NCBI RefSeq assembly: GCF_000381985.1 | Contig: NZ_KB907337.1 | Location: forward strand, 447,697 to 511,696 | From: Novispirillum itersonii subsp. itersonii ATCC 12639 | GTDB lineage: Bacteria; Pseudomonadota; Alphaproteobacteria; Rhodospirillales; Rhodospirillaceae | Direction: 5' to 3' | DNA length: 64,000 nucleotides | Shown here: in pieces, positions 58,887 through 64,000 of the stretch | Layout: every line of letters starts with the position of its first letter | How positions within the stretch are numbered: the first letter of the stretch is position 1 | Notes under the pieces: generated by a model | Database searches by the model: none | Told to the model about the DNA's origin: nothing | What the model saw: only the letters and a program-made list of their open reading frames with translations | Program-made: the position numbers and the translations under genes

Positions 58887-60374
58887 TCAGGCCTTGTAGC
58901 AGACGGCCTTGGCGGCATCAGCGATGCGCTTGGCGTCCGGCAGAACCATCTTTTCGAGGTTCACGGCATAGGGCATCGGCACGTCGATACCGGTGACACG
59001 GCGGACCGGGGCATCGAGGTAGTCGAAGGCAGATTCGGTGACGACGGCGGAAATTTCCGAGCCGATACCGGCATACGGCCAGCCTTCTTCAACGCTGATG
59101 CAGCGGTTGGTCTTCTTGACCGAGGCCAGAATGGTCGGCACGTCCAGCGGGCGGATGGTACGCAGGTTGATGACTTCAGCATCAATGCCTTCCGCCGCCA
59201 GCAGTTCCGCCGCTTCCAGCGAGGTCCCGACCATGCGGGAATAGGTGACGATGGTCACGTCCTTCCCGGCGCGTTCGATCTTGGCCTTGCCGATCGGCAG
59301 CACGAAATCCGGATCATCCGGCACATCGAAGCTCTGACCGTACAGGATCTCGTTTTCGAGGAACACCACCGGGTTCGGATCCCGGATCGCGGCCTTCAGC
59401 AGGCCCTTGGCATCGGCGGCCGACCACGGGGCCAGCACCTTCAGGCCCGGGCAGTGGGCATACCACGAGGCATAGCACTGGGAGTGCTGGGCCGCGACGC
59501 GGGCAGCGGCCCCGTTCGGGCCACGGAACACGATCGGGCAGCCCATCTTGCCGCCGGCCATGTACAGGGTCTTGGCCGCCGAGTTGATGACGTGGTCAAT
59601 CGCCTGCATGGAGAAGTTGAAGGTCATGAACTCCACGATCGGACGCAGACCCTTGAAGGCCGCGCCGGTGGCCAGACCGGCAAACCCCATTTCGGTGATC
59701 GGGGTGTCGATCACGCGGCGGGGGCCGAACTCATCCAGAAGGCCCTGCGACACCTTGTAGGCACCCTGATACTGGGCGACTTCCTCACCCATCAGGAACA
59801 CGGCATCGTCACGGCGCATTTCTTCGGCCATGGCGTCGCGCAGGGCTTCGCGCACGGTCATCCGCACGAACTTGTCGTAGGTCTTTTCCGGGATGTCGGT
59901 CAGGGTGTACGCGGTGGTGGTCAGCACTTCCGGCTGGAAGGGCTCAACCGCACCGGTCACCACCGGGGCAGCGGCGGCAGGGGCGCTGGCAACCGGAACG
60001 CTGGCAACAGGGGCGCTGGCGACAGGGGCGCTGGCGACAGGGGCGCTGGCGACAGGGGCCGGGGCGGCGGCAACCGGGGCGGCAGCCGCCGGGGCCGGAG
60101 CAGCGGCGGTATCCGCGGCAGAGGCATCTTCGCCTTCCAGCAGCAGCACGGCGATGGCGGCGTTCACGGCCACGCCCTCGGTGCCTTCAGCCACCAGAAT
60201 TTTACCCAGCACGCCTTCATCGACGGCTTCAAATTCCATCGTCGCCTTATCGGTTTCGATTTCGGCGATGATGTCACCGGCGGCGATGGCGTCGCCTTCT
60301 TTCTTCAGCCACTTGGCCAGCTTGCCTTCGGTCATGGTCGGCGACAGCGCCGGCATCAGTACGGTAATCGGCAT
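58887..60374 (-). CDS. pdhB: Pyruvate dehydrogenase E1 beta with N-terminal lipoyl domain
   Basis: Beta subunit of the thiamine-dependent E1 component. Unusual but typical for alphaproteobacteria, residues 1-80 form a lipoyl domain (K43 in ETDKATMEF), followed by an Ala/Pro/Val linker that includes five 15-bp repeats, and then the E1-beta domain (about 155-495) with [26 protein letters not shown] and [20 protein letters not shown]. The lipoyl domain is nearly the same, at DNA level too, as that of PdhC. ATG at 60374 with AAGGA upstream; 35 bp after pdhA. Confidence 0.96.
59979..60053 (-). repeat. Five 15-bp tandem repeats in the pdhB linker
   Basis: Unit AGGGGCGCTGGCGAC (plus-strand reading), five adjacent copies; the three at 60009-60053 are identical. 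In frame they encode the Pro-Val-Ala-Ser-Ala repeat of the linker. Slippage could change linker length without breaking the frame. Confidence 0.9.
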
Positions 60375-60409
60375 GGTGTTTCGTCCTTGGGAAGAAGGGG
60401 CCAGCGTTC

Positions 60410-61426
60410 TCAGGCGTCGACCAGAATGTCGGTGTACAGTTCCGACGGATCCGGTTCCGGGCTGTTCTGCGAGAACTCGGCAGCTTCGGTGACGATCACC
60501 TTCACCTCGCGGTCGATCTCCTTCAGACCGGCTTCATCGATCGCGTTCAGCTCCAGCAGCTTGGACTTCAGCTGGTCGATCGGGTCATGCTCGGTCCGCA
60601 TCTTGGAGACTTCTTCCTTGCTGCGGTACTTGGCCGGGTCAGACATGGAATGACCACGGTAACGGTAGGTGTTGGCTTCCAGAATATACGGGCCCTTGCC
60701 GGAGCGGGCATGCTCGGCGGCCTCAAGGGCGGCGTCGCGCACGGTCAGCACGTCCATACCGTCAACCGGGGCCCCCGGAATGCCGTAGGCGGTGCCGCGC
60801 TGGTACAGGGCGGTGGAGGCCGAGGCGCGCTCGACACTGGTGCCCATGCCGTACTTGTTGTTTTCGATCACATAGACCACCGGGAGCTTCCACAGCGCGG
60901 CCATGTTGAAGGATTCATAAACCTGCCCCTGGTTGACCGCACCGTCACCCATGTAGGCAAAACAGACGCCGCCGTCGCCGGAGTACTGATGGGCAAAGCC
61001 CAGACCGGTGCCCAGCGGAATCTGCGCGCCGACGATGCCGTGACCGCCGAAGAAGCCCTTCTCCAGCGAGAACATGTGCATCGAGCCGCCCTTCCCCTTG
61101 GAATAGCCGCCGATGCGGCCGGTCAGCTCGGCCATCACACCCTTCGGGTCCATACCACAGGCCAGCATATGGCCATGGTCACGGTAGCTGGTGATGACGG
61201 TGTCAACACCGTCAAGCGCTGCGGCCTGCATGCCGACAACCACCGCTTCCTGCCCGATGTACAGGTGGCAGAAGCCACCGATCAGGCCCATGCCATAAAG
61301 CTGCCCCGCCTTTTCTTCAAAGCGGCGGATCAGCAGCATGTCGCGGTAGTAGCGGACCAGCTCTTCAGTATCCGGCACTTCGGAAGATTTTGCGGAACGG
61401 GGTTTGCGACGGGGTGTGGTAGCCAT
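60410..61426 (-). CDS. pdhA: Pyruvate dehydrogenase E1 alpha
   Basis: Thiamine-diphosphate-binding alpha subunit that decarboxylates pyruvate. The 338-residue protein has the thiamine motif [31 protein letters not shown] and the conserved [20 protein letters not shown] loop. A Lys/Arg-rich N-terminal extension ([11 protein letters not shown]) precedes the domain. GGAGGGACC precedes the ATG. It heads pdhA-pdhB-pdhC-lpdA-lipA; upstream is a 525-bp region without genes. Confidence 0.96.
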
Positions 61427-61951
61427 GGTCCCTCCGTATCTGGGGGCTTGAGACTCAACGACAGCGTCCGGCGGGGAGCCCGCGGCGGACAGGATCTGGA
61501 TGGCCCGGCTTTCTCAGCAGACAGAGACCCCGACAGGCTTGCATTAAAAGACGGAGGATCGGTCCGAAGACGCGGTGATCCCGGTCAGGGCGAGCGTAAC
61601 GGGGCAAGCCTGCTCCAGCAGGTGCCAACACCGTCACAGTATGCGAACCGGCGTCGGTTGCAAGTCAGAAAATGCAGCTAAGTGCTTGTATCGCAATGCA
61701 CAATAATATTTTAACCGCTTTTTGGTTAAAGCGTGAAAAACCAACACTTTCCGCAAAAACCTACCCGCAGGCGAAGTAATTTTATATCCATATGGAAACC
61801 AGATCAGAAACTTATGCACAATAATCTGTGCAGTGCGGAAATTTTTATGAAAATCCTCAATCGCATCCACACAGACAGAAAAAAAACAAAACCCCGCCGT
61901 GTGGAGCGGGGTTTTAAAGATCTTCAGCGGCCCCCGAAACGGGCGGTCGAA
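61427..61951. other. 525-bp region upstream of pdhA, promoter and partly AT-rich
   Basis: 61427-61675 is GC-rich, 61680-61880 AT-rich. Contents: inverted repeat TTTAACC/GGTTAAA (61710-61730), the 12-mer ATGCACAATAAT twice (61696-61707 and 61814-61825), and the ftsB terminator. I see no gene and expect pdhA control sites here. Confidence 0.6.
61878..61915 (-). terminator. Terminator of ftsB
   Basis: AAAACCCCGC pairs with GCGGGGTTTT (61888-61915) and the minus strand continues with a long T-rich run. It lies 36 bp after the ftsB stop and separates it from pdhA. Confidence 0.92.
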
Positions 61952-62290
61952 TCACGGGGTGTCTTTTTCTGCCCCGGCGTCAGGCGGCAGCAGGATCACT
62001 TTTTCACCCGGATAGCCCATATTCAGCATCACCCGGGCGCGTTCTTCCAGAATATCGGGGTCCATCGCTTCCGGCTGCATCAGCGACACCCGGTTTTCAA
62101 GATCCTTCCGGCGGGCGGCCACGGTCTGGTGCAGGGCTTCTGCCTTGGTGATTTCCTGCCGGAGCTGCCACCAGGCGAACAGGCCACGGTCACCCTGCAC
62201 GGCGTGAAACAGGAAATATGCGACCCCAGCGGCCCCCAGCAGGGGCCCCAGCGCAGTTTGCATCCAGCGGCGGATCAGGTCATAGCTCAT
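61952..62290 (-). CDS. ftsB: Septum formation initiator FtsB
   Basis: Bitopic division protein that with FtsL and FtsQ activates septal synthesis. The 112-residue protein has a short cytoplasmic start, one membrane helix (about 12-31), a coiled coil (EITKAEALHQTVAARRKDLENRVSLM) and the C-terminal ILEERARVMLNMGYPGEKVILLP, the usual FtsB/DivIC ending. In alphaproteobacteria it normally lies next to pdhA, as here. Confidence 0.9.
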   Translation of the reverse strand: MSYDLIRRWMQTALGPLLGAAGVAYFLFHAVQGDRGLFAWWQLRQEITKAEALHQTVAARRKDLENRVSLMQPEAMDPDILEERARVMLNMGYPGEKVILLPPDAGAEKDTP

Positions 62291-62343
62291 GGGGTCAGAG
62301 GATCACGGATACAGCCCGCCGGTCAAGCCCAACCTGCGGCCTG

Positions 62344-63324
62344 TCAACGCCCCGCCCCCCAGACCTCCACCGTAAGGTGAGACACCCCACCCAGTGCGGC
62401 AAGCCGCCGGTGTACTGCCTGTACCACCTGCTCCCCCTGCCCAGCCTGTACGGCGACAGAGACCGCACAGGCGTGGTCATCAGCCCCGACGCGCCACAGG
62501 TGAAAATCATGGATCGCCTGCACGCCGTCCACAGCAGCAATGCTCTGACGGCAGTTTTCTACTAGTAGAGGATTGTCATCCGCAGTATCCAGCAACGCCG
62601 CCCCGGCATCGCGCAGCAGGCCCCACGCCCACACCAGCACCAGAGCAGCCCCGATGATGCCCATCAGCGGATCCATCCACGTCAGCCCCCAGACCTTACC
62701 GCCGAGAAGAGCAATAATTGCCAGAACCGACGTCGCCGCATCCGCCATCACGTGGGCATAGGCGGACCGGAGATTGATATCGCCCGCCCCCTGATGATGA
62801 TCATGATTATGATGATGGTCATGATGATGAGTGTGATCATGATGGTGATGGTGATGGTGCCCGGAGCCGGGACGGGACAGGATCCAGCCGCACAGCAGAT
62901 TGACCAGCAGCCCCGTCACTGCGACCGCCATCGCCTGATCGTAAAGCACCACATCCGGGCTCATCACCTTTTCGACGGACTGCACCGCCATCCCCAGCGC
63001 CACCGCCAGCAGCAGCAGGGCGCTGGTATAACCGCCCAGCACCTCAATCTTCCATGCCCCGAAAGCAAAGCGCCCCGATCCGGCAAAGCGCCGGGCCAGA
63101 GCGTAGGCCAGCGCGGATATCCCCAGCGCGATGGCATGGCTGCCCATGTGCCAGCCGTCGGCAAGCACAGCCATCGACCCGGTCAGGGTGCCGCCCACAA
63201 TCTCCGCCACCATGGTGGCGACGGTCAGGCCCAGTGCCCAGCGGGTCGCCCGCTCCGCCAGCGGAGTTCCTGCCGGAGCCGGATGGTGATGGAGCCTCTT
63301 GTCGAAAAGCTGTTCTGTCTGCAT
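62344..63324 (-). CDS. dmeF: Cation diffusion facilitator metal exporter (DmeF-like)
   Basis: Six-helix H+-coupled efflux pump of the CDF family. The 326-residue protein has the helix-2 metal motif HMGSHAIALG, the helix-5 motif HVMADAATSVL and a 22-residue His/Asp-rich loop between helices 4 and 5 (about residues 155-176), followed by a cytoplasmic ferredoxin-like domain. A divergent RcnR-type Ni/Co sensor and an RcnR-like operator in the gap suggest cobalt/nickel export, as in DmeF, rather than zinc (inference). Its ribosome site is weak. Confidence 0.88.
   Translation of the reverse strand: MQTEQLFDKRLHHHPAPAGTPLAERATRWALGLTVATMVAEIVGGTLTGSMAVLADGWHMGSHAIALGISALAYALARRFAGSGRFAFGAWKIEVLGGYTSALLLLAVALGMAVQSVEKVMSPDVVLYDQAMAVAVTGLLVNLLCGWILSRPGSGHHHHHHHDHTHHHDHHHNHDHHQGAGDINLRSAYAHVMADAATSVLAIIALLGGKVWGLTWMDPLMGIIGAALVLVWAWGLLRDAGAALLDTADDNPLLVENCRQSIAAVDGVQAIHDFHLWRVGADDHACAVSVAVQAGQGEQVVQAVHRRLAALGGVSHLTVEVWGAGR
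62791..62862. repeat. CAT/GAT/GTG low-complexity tract encoding the His-rich loop of DmeF
   Basis: Imperfect triplet repeats (ATG, GTG, GAT, reading CAT/CAC/ATC on the coding strand). They encode HHHHHHHDHTHHHDH and the rest of the metal-binding loop. Not a CRISPR or mobile repeat. Confidence 0.85.
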
Positions 63325-63351
63325 GGTACGGGTCCGGAGTATGTCGAAATA

Positions 63352-63366
63352 TACTATACCCCAGTA
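63352..63366. promoter_or_regulatory. RcnR-type operator between dmeF and rcnR
   Basis: On the minus strand TACTGGGGTATAGTA: the TACT-G-tract-AGTA layout of RcnR sites, 15 bp as in E. coli. It lies in the 68-bp divergent gap, 28 bp from the dmeF start and 27 bp from the rcnR start, so it could repress both. Confidence 0.65.
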
Positions 63367-63392
63367 TCCTATAACACAGAGACCGTCAAGCG

Positions 63393-63668
63393 ATGCCCCA
63401 TACCGTCAAAGACCAAAAGAAGCTGCTGGCCCGCGTCCGCCGGATCAAGGGACAGACAGAAGGCCTTGAGCGGGCGCTGGAAGCCGGGACTGACTGCTCG
63501 GCAATCCTGCAGCAGATTGCCGCCATCCGGGGGGCCGTCAACGGCCTGATGGCTGAAGTGCTGGAAGGCCACATGCGTGACCATCTGGGGGCGGAAGACC
63601 GCACGCCCCAACAGCGCCACGACGATCTGGAGCAGGTGGTCTCCGTCCTGCGGTCTTATCTGAAGTAA
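63393..63668 (+). CDS. rcnR: RcnR/DmeR-type Ni(II)/Co(II)-responsive repressor
   Basis: All-helical CsoR/RcnR-family sensor that releases DNA when it binds metal. The 91-residue protein keeps all four ligands known for E. coli RcnR: H3 (MPHTVK), C35 (GTDCSAILQQ), H60 and H64 (EGHMRDH). LLARVRRIKGQTEGLERALE is the family DNA-contact helix. It is divergent from the DmeF-type exporter. FrmR-type formaldehyde sensors lack H3/H60/H64, so a nickel/cobalt role is preferred. Confidence 0.93.
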   Translation: MPHTVKDQKKLLARVRRIKGQTEGLERALEAGTDCSAILQQIAAIRGAVNGLMAEVLEGHMRDHLGAEDRTPQQRHDDLEQVVSVLRSYLK

Positions 63669-63682
63669 AATCCGGCCCCAGA

Positions 63683-63718
63683 TACTCCCCGGGGTATACA
63701 ACATACCCCCGGGGAGTA
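63683..63718. repeat. Palindrome downstream of rcnR with TACTCCCCGGGG core
   Basis: Arms TACTCCCCGGGGTAT (63683-63697) and ATACCCCCGGGGAGTA (63703-63718) match except for one extra C, around ACAAC. Each arm itself has a CCCCGGGG core. There is no T-tract. It lies in the 58-bp space between the rcnR stop and the convergent tag gene. Confidence 0.65.
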
Positions 63719-63726
63719 CCCGATGG

Positions 63727-64000
63727 TCATCGCGGGCGCTGAAATAGCTGCCGCGCCTGTTCTGCCGCCTGTCGCCCGGTACAGCCGGGCACATGGTCGT
63801 TAATCAGCCCCATCGCCTGCATAAAGGCATAGACCGTGGTCGGCCCGACAAAGGCCCAGCCCCGCTTTTTAAGATCCTTTGACAGCGCGACGGAAGCCGG
63901 AGACGTGCTTTGCGTCTGGGGCTCCCCCAGATCCTCCGCCTTCGGCTCAAACCGCCAGATATACGCGGCCAGTGACCCCTCTGCCTTCACCAGCTCACAG
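63727..64000 (-). CDS. tag: DNA-3-methyladenine glycosylase I (partial)
   Basis: Removes 3-methyladenine from alkylated DNA. Only the C-terminal 90 residues are in the window; the frame continues past base 64000. GSLAAYIWRFEPK, SVALSKDLKKRGWAFVGPTTVYAFMQAMGLINDHV is the Tag family ending, with the zinc-binding His in NDHVPGC and the Cys in PGCTGRQ. The true start lies beyond the window. Convergent with rcnR. Confidence 0.93.
   Translation of the reverse strand, partial: CELVKAEGSLAAYIWRFEPKAEDLGEPQTQSTSPASVALSKDLKKRGWAFVGPTTVYAFMQAMGLINDHVPGCTGRQAAEQARQLFQRPR

Follow-up and report, generated by a model that had tools for sequence, protein, structure and literature searches.

At the far end of a metal-regulator gene, in the 58-bp gap between the convergent genes dmeR and tag, the 64,000-nt Novispirillum window analysed here (the whole stretch of DNA, to which unprefixed positions refer) carries a large palindrome, and this locus raises the question of whether such a structure is an operator, a transcript end or both. 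The first-pass annotation had seen in it either an accessory operator resembling those of the CsoR/RcnR family, or a transcription stop without a T-tract. It is well supported by our analysis that the palindrome is a strong hairpin at convergent gene ends, made of two dyads of CsoR-family form that are kept in both Novispirillum genomes.

The gap is bordered by dmeR (63393-63668, plus strand), encoding a 91-aa CsoR-family repressor of the RcnR/FrmR branch (PF02583, 87.1 bits), and by the C-terminal part of tag, encoding DNA-3-methyladenine glycosylase I (63727-64000, minus strand, convergent with dmeR; PF03352, 81.5 bits). TIGR00624 gave 61.2 bits for tag against a cut-off of 232.5, a score that refers to the fragment of 90 aa inside the window; in our own gene calls tag extends from 63727 to 64365, beyond the window end. 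Divergent from dmeR lies dmeF (62344-63324, minus strand), a CDF-family Co/Ni efflux transporter gene recognized by NF033827 (CDF_efflux_DmeF) with 338.7 bits at a cut-off of 250. The product does not reach the curated cut-offs for FrmR (119.4 versus 133) and RcnR (100.2 versus 138), and the closest solved structures are FrmR proteins. Inspection of the translation by eye, however, gives H3, C35, H60 and H64, which correspond to the HCHH ligand set described for RcnR and DmeR in the available part of PMC7055735, and the gene is therefore named dmeR, not rcnR. The combination of His3-Cys35-His60-His64 with a divergent Co/Ni exporter scoring above its curated DmeF cut-off is that of an RcnR/DmeR-type regulator. 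Genome-wide, dmeR is the only PF02583 gene found. The regulator of the second Novispirillum genome, N. itersonii (G001; strain DSM 11590), is 98% identical to DmeR of the window. DmeR is 87% identical to Pseudomonas proteins and at most 53% identical to proteins from other genera of its order (61 genomes searched), and for this reason the sequences suggest that dmeR may have been acquired by horizontal transfer. DmeF harbours a His-rich loop (HHHHHHHDHTHHHDHHHNHDHH) arising from dense His codons at 62780-62860. Further away, a terminator-like hairpin at 61887-61916, with a T run on the minus strand and directly behind the minus-strand gene at 61952-62290, contrasts with the T-less palindrome at 63683-63718.

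The whole palindrome (63683-63718) is composed of TACTCCCCGGGGTAT (63683-63697), ACAAC (63698-63702) and ATACCCCCGGGGAGTA (63703-63718), such that RNA of either strand gives a hairpin. The two arms face each other across five bases exactly as the first-pass annotation had described, with full complementarity in the outer 12 nt (63683-63694 and 63707-63718), and their lengths of 15 and 16 nt produce a one-base bulge in the stem. Its position downstream of the regulator gene (stop codon 63666-63668) and ahead of the minus-strand stop of tag was equally confirmed. Two inverted repeats with arms at most 200 bp apart were present in 60000-64000, and this was the sole fully complementary one. For RNA of 63680-63722 the folding energy is -25.7 kcal/mol on the plus strand (z = -4.54) and -30.9 kcal/mol on the minus strand (z = -4.97), with none of 200 shuffles as good for either strand. 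Taken alone, each arm forms a dyad, TAC-N8/9-GTA, that contains a C-tract and a G-tract: dyad A, TACTCCCCGGGGTA (63683-63696), has the form TAC-N8-GTA, and dyad B, TACCCCCGGGGAGTA (63704-63718), has the form TAC-N9-GTA and fits the strict pattern treated below. A linker of 7 nt (63697-63703) separates them, with the centres about 21.5 bp apart. The scanner found neither a promoter-like match nor a T-tract terminator in the dmeR/tag gap. A known RNA element was rejected since Rfam gave no match at the gathering threshold in 63300-64000.

In the 734-kb contig C1, 89 convergent gene pairs were called by a simple codon-bias caller of our own, and 65 gaps of 20-400 nt were analysed. Within 46 nt, 54 of these 65 gaps of contig C1 form a hairpin at or below -20 kcal/mol, and 45 form one at or below -25. 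Median hairpin energies were -28.2 in convergent, -22.1 in tandem and -20.7 in divergent gaps, and the palindrome ranks fifth of the 65 convergent gaps at -33.8. Thirteen of the 54 strong convergent hairpins are T-poor, with at most 3 T in 8 nt on either strand; after the palindrome stem the best 8 nt contain 2 T (plus strand) and 3 T (minus strand). As a hairpin the palindrome is therefore ordinary, and a shared T-poor 3'-end hairpin is to be expected at such a place, since 54 of the 65 gaps contain a strong hairpin and 13 of the 54 are as poor in T. The proposal of a transcription stop without a T-tract is thus just as much alive, strong hairpins being usual in convergent gaps and T-poor ones not rare.

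The dyad form, as distinct from the hairpin, is scarce. TACTCCN{0,4}GGGGTA occurs in the 4.29-Mb genome only as dyads A and B, TACCCCN{0,4}GGGGTA has no occurrence in the same 4.29 Mb, and TACTCCN{0,4}GGAGTA has one further site, TACTCCGACAGGAGTA, with spacing 10 (G000:C20:33923-33938). The YCC...GGR form at a spacing of 8 or 9 is found genome-wide only in the dmeR/tag gap; a looser string, TACCCCACAGGGTA, is located in contig C1 (C1:321435). In N. itersonii the relaxed TACTCCN{0,4}GGGGTA is found at four further places, with other spacings, beyond its two dyads. Self-palindromy with a half-length of at least 4 in both arms was displayed by one of 80 convergent hairpins in two contigs, that at 63683-63718, and the N. 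itersonii gap hairpin (-23.0) falls below this mark. When hairpin arms were simulated to match real arms in composition, the strict form arose at about 5e-7 per arm, or about 2e-4 expected per 380 hairpins; the rate rests on some two hits for each motif among 4 million arms, and the 380 convergent hairpins per genome are an extrapolation from one contig. The palindrome might also belong to a dispersed repeat family of the REP/BIME kind, as its palindromic and extragenic nature could suggest. The exact 15-mer has one genome copy, and allowing up to 2 mismatches gives 7 places versus 4 for the reversed control, so that the many copies of such a family are missing; it was rejected and has next to no likelihood.

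In N. itersonii the same gap measures 81 nt and is 57% identical overall. It also contains two dyads, TACCCCCCGGGGGTA and TACTCCTCCGGGGTA, both of the N9 type, with a 7-nt linker as in the window; their centres lie 22 bp from each other. Between the species the two dyads agree in all their TAC and GTA ends and differ in spacers and linker. The arm identity of 0.90 is the second-highest of 24 orthologous convergent hairpins, for which the median is 0.72 (from the same gene caller; the gaps, out of 28, with a hairpin of -20 or better; the self-palindrome listing covered 26 of the 28). The 85-nt stretch around the N. itersonii gap folds at -35.2 (plus strand) and -41.0 (minus strand); the large stem appears in a 58-nt fold with a 2x2 mismatch, and the longer stretch favours other stems. 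The TAC/GTA ends and the arms are kept, whereas no more than 13 of the 20 stem pairs correspond to pairs in the other species and the mismatch interrupts the stem, so that a constraint on the dyads rather than on the long stem appears to fit better in this comparison of two Novispirillum genomes. Aligned by hand, the dyads show a T-A to C-G change at one cross-arm pair, where automated alignment counted none, and this change favours a constraint on the stem.

The distribution of the form was followed across the order with a strict motif, TACYCCNNNGGRGTA, which was written after viewing both Novispirillum loci and agrees with the published form. Of 317 genomes searched in the order, 28 carry it, at 33 sites in all, three of them in Novispirillum; 75 of the 317 have a PF02583 gene. 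Outside Novispirillum, 10 of 30 sites begin at a distance of 25-61 nt before a PF02583 gene, counted from its assumed start codon and approximate since the start was taken as the nearest upstream start-type codon to the domain match; the other 20 do not adjoin such a gene. The regulator-adjacent sites are distributed over 8 genomes, two of which carry tandem pairs with starts 34 bp apart, and all 8 regulators concerned belong to the CsoR branch, with Cys-His-Cys in their translations. The reversed control pattern was commoner than the motif in the genomes of the order, which argues that the motif is not just a frequent string. Judged on these grounds, TACYCCNNNGGRGTA is an operator signature in the order and a strong mark of CsoR-family promoters there. 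The csoR-type genes of G087 and G291 are preceded by the 15-mer TACCCCCCGGGGGTA of the N. itersonii gap. At the CsoR-branch genes L167-L172, L174 and L189, the approximate positions of TAC-N9-GTA relative to the assumed start codon are -25, -41/-44 or -59/-61, and strict tandem pairs stand at -25 and -59 in G076 and G077. Nineteen of the 20 orphan sites had a locus: 8 are intragenic, tandem gaps hold 4, and a divergent gap and a doubtful convergent gap of 1129 bp hold 1 each, with 5 left without class, in calls by a caller trained on Novispirillum that is weak for low-GC genomes. That orphan sites might be hidden terminators was rejected on these 19 loci. Whether or not DmeR binds the dyads, CsoR-branch promoters in the order can usefully be recognized by the strict TAC-N9-GTA pattern.

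The operator by which DmeR would regulate its own promoter has another form. The related loci examined were the best 80 of 119 from one scan, comprising 79 outside Novispirillum and that of N. itersonii. In 77 of these 79, ATACT-N3-CCCC-AGTAT (type 1) is matched ahead of the regulator, amounting to 24 distinct sites, from which a DmeR matrix was built. The type-1 promoter operator of the window, ATACTATACCCCAGTATC (63351-63368, plus strand), lies between dmeF and dmeR and ranks first of 1,468,512 positions in contig C1 with 31.4 bits; its region, AATATACTATACCCCAGTATCCTAT (63349-63373), is unchanged in N. itersonii, and the surrounding bases differ. By the same matrix, dyads A and B score -3.0 and -3.7 bits (ranks 1,027 and 1,268 of 1,468,512), and the type-1 pattern with up to 2 mismatches has no match in the dmeR/tag gap; on both grounds the downstream dyads were rejected as a type-1 DmeR site. 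The better of the N. itersonii dyads reaches 5.9 bits (rank 21 of 534,164) and the second -7.3. The runner-up in contig C1, ATACAATCCCCCAGTACC (20.7 bits; G000:C1:414259-414276, L125), lies within a called gene and is probably a chance match. A TAC-N9-GTA string near the dmeF start (63327-63341) is not kept in N. itersonii and was taken as chance. Among these loci, again the best 80 of 119, the two dyads are present in L024 and in none of the other 79, and the dyad element is found on neither strand in the fetched flanks of any of the 79 loci outside Novispirillum. A dmeF-like gene stands on the opposite strand in 54 of these 79 loci, or 55 of 80 with N. itersonii. A tblastn search with the 90-aa tag fragment against L010-L103, L164-L166, L173 and L176-L191 matched N. 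itersonii only. Absence from relatives with the same gene pair, which the first-pass annotation had named as speaking against its own proposal, is thus borne out in part, with the element in 0 of 79 loci, 54 of them with a dmeF-like gene (best 80 of 119).

The reading to which we tentatively give the greatest weight, while rating it below an even chance, is that of a tandem pair of candidate CsoR/RcnR-family operators, probably for DmeR and functioning as a roadblock, the hairpin being a by-product or second use. Two adjacent copies of a palindromic site would pair with each other and so yield the large hairpin. We infer that metal-free DmeR may bind the dyad pair as well as the promoter operator about 340 bp upstream, and that the bound repressor would form a roadblock (or a loop) at the dmeR/tag boundary, keeping tag transcription from running back through dmeR and dmeR transcription out of tag; Ni or Co would then release DmeR from the pair, and the RNA hairpin may protect or end both transcripts. 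This operator-pair reading is favoured by the fit to TAC-X9-GTA, by the confinement of the spacing-8/9 form to the neighbourhood of the sole PF02583 gene found, by the preservation of the dyads in N. itersonii in a gap only 57% identical, by the position of the strict motif ahead of PF02583 genes and by the self-palindromic arms, one case in 80 and rare in simulation. That a Ni/Co sensor could read such a dyad is conceivable because the NreA consensus contains both a C- and a G-tract (available text of PMC12724321). The reading is weakened because the 8 regulators beside strict sites in other genera all belong to the CsoR branch with Cys-His-Cys and not to the DmeR/RcnR kind, because the DmeR branch uses the type-1 site in 77 of 79 loci and the type-2 form in 0 of 79 (best 80 of 119), and because of the negative matrix scores. 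Against it also speak the N8 spacing of dyad A and the abutting C- and G-tracts, which depart from the type-2 definition as given in the available part of PMC3902906, the four further relaxed sites in N. itersonii and the spacing-10 relative in the genome itself. Regulator-adjacent sites elsewhere lie upstream of genes, and the pair here in a convergent gap without a promoter-like match; the N. itersonii hairpin is unremarkable by the self-palindrome measure, and the T-A to C-G change favours the stem. The more specific proposal of a metal-gated roadblock, in which a family repressor sits on a tandem operator behind its own gene and insulates that gene from the convergent DNA-repair gene tag until Ni or Co arrives, and in which the DmeR branch would read type-2-like in addition to type-1 sites, is graded lower, as unlikely.

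The main rival, a serious contender that also stays short of even, is an ordinary bidirectional 3'-end hairpin common to dmeR and tag, serving as a T-poor terminator or as a Rho or exonuclease end-point, whose operator look is coincidental. The frequency of hairpins of -20 or better in convergent gaps and the fifth rank of the palindrome are what it predicts, together with the equally T-poor 13 of 54, the strong folding of the N. itersonii gap and the hand-aligned cross-arm change. It leaves unexplained why the arms are self-palindromic with TAC/GTA ends, expected far below once per genome, and why sites of spacing 8/9 stand beside the only CsoR-family gene found; nor does the scanner's result for T-tracts or the mismatched N. 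itersonii stem, outcompeted in the longer stretch, speak for it. A third possibility is that the pair once served a lost CsoR-branch regulator of the Cu or sulfur type, or an unrelated protein recognizing GC dyads, and is now neutral or a hairpin only. The match to sites before CsoR-branch genes, including TACCCCCCGGGGGTA in G087 and G291, and the lack of a second PF02583 gene among those found agree with such a relic or foreign site, whereas the preservation of the TAC/GTA ends in both species at 57% gap identity is unexpected for a relic, and we regard it as improbable. Should DmeR bind the dyads, the 3' end of a gene would be a place of action for CsoR/RcnR-family operators, and readers of type-1 and type-2 sites would be less sharply divided than assumed; should it not, a transcript-end hairpin closely mimics an operator, which calls for caution in operator scans. 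The earlier recognition of a CsoR/RcnR-family look thus holds, the operator type assumed for the resident regulator does not, and the terminator alternative stands.

According to the available parts of the sources, CsoR-family operators are TAC-X9-GTA inverted repeats around G/C tracts, sometimes in tandem, with 2-4 bases between the C- and the G-tract in the type-2 definition (PMC3902906). The nine-base spacing is found in dyad B and in both N. itersonii dyads, dyad A being N8. The tracts are present and abut, with C or G as the middle three bases in dyad B and in N. itersonii dyad A; abutting tracts and the lack of A/T at mid-site recur in the sites before the CsoR-branch genes of G087 and G291. 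The resemblance to family operators claimed in the first-pass annotation is therefore real as regards TAC-X9-GTA with C/G-tracts, a form that marks CsoR-family promoters, and fails as regards the type-1 site of DmeR. Compared with type-2 operators such as those of S. lividans csoR and copZA, from a family in which tandem sites are known (PMC3902906, available part), the element shares TAC-X9-GTA around two G/C tracts and differs in one spacing of 8, in the lack of intervening bases and in its place, which is the convergent gap downstream of the regulator gene and not a promoter, next to a regulator of the RcnR/DmeR branch. E. coli RcnR has tandem TACT-G6-N-AGTA operators (available parts of PMC3902906 and PMC7055735), and the type-1 RcnR/DmeR systems resemble the present pair in TAC and GTA nine bases apart, a G/C-rich core and, in E. 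coli, the use of two sites; the core here is a C-tract plus a G-tract, not one unbroken tract, and the branch matrix scores it poorly (-3.0 and -3.7 versus 31.4 bits). NreA, a Ni sensor of Mesorhizobium, has the symmetric consensus TATCCYCtccrgGRGGATA (PMC12724321, available text), which has a nine-base dyad centre with C- and G-tract and belongs to a Ni-responsive family member; it differs by its TCC/GGA ends, as against TAC/GTA here, and, as described in the same text, is a single site within the promoter. An intrinsic terminator shares with the element the GC-rich stem-loop past the stop codon and is distinguished by the T-tract after the stem. The bidirectional hairpin terminators of convergent genes differ in their flanking A/T tract, which the element is without, and in that the arms here are self-palindromic, and they are like it in place, in stem stability and in symmetry.
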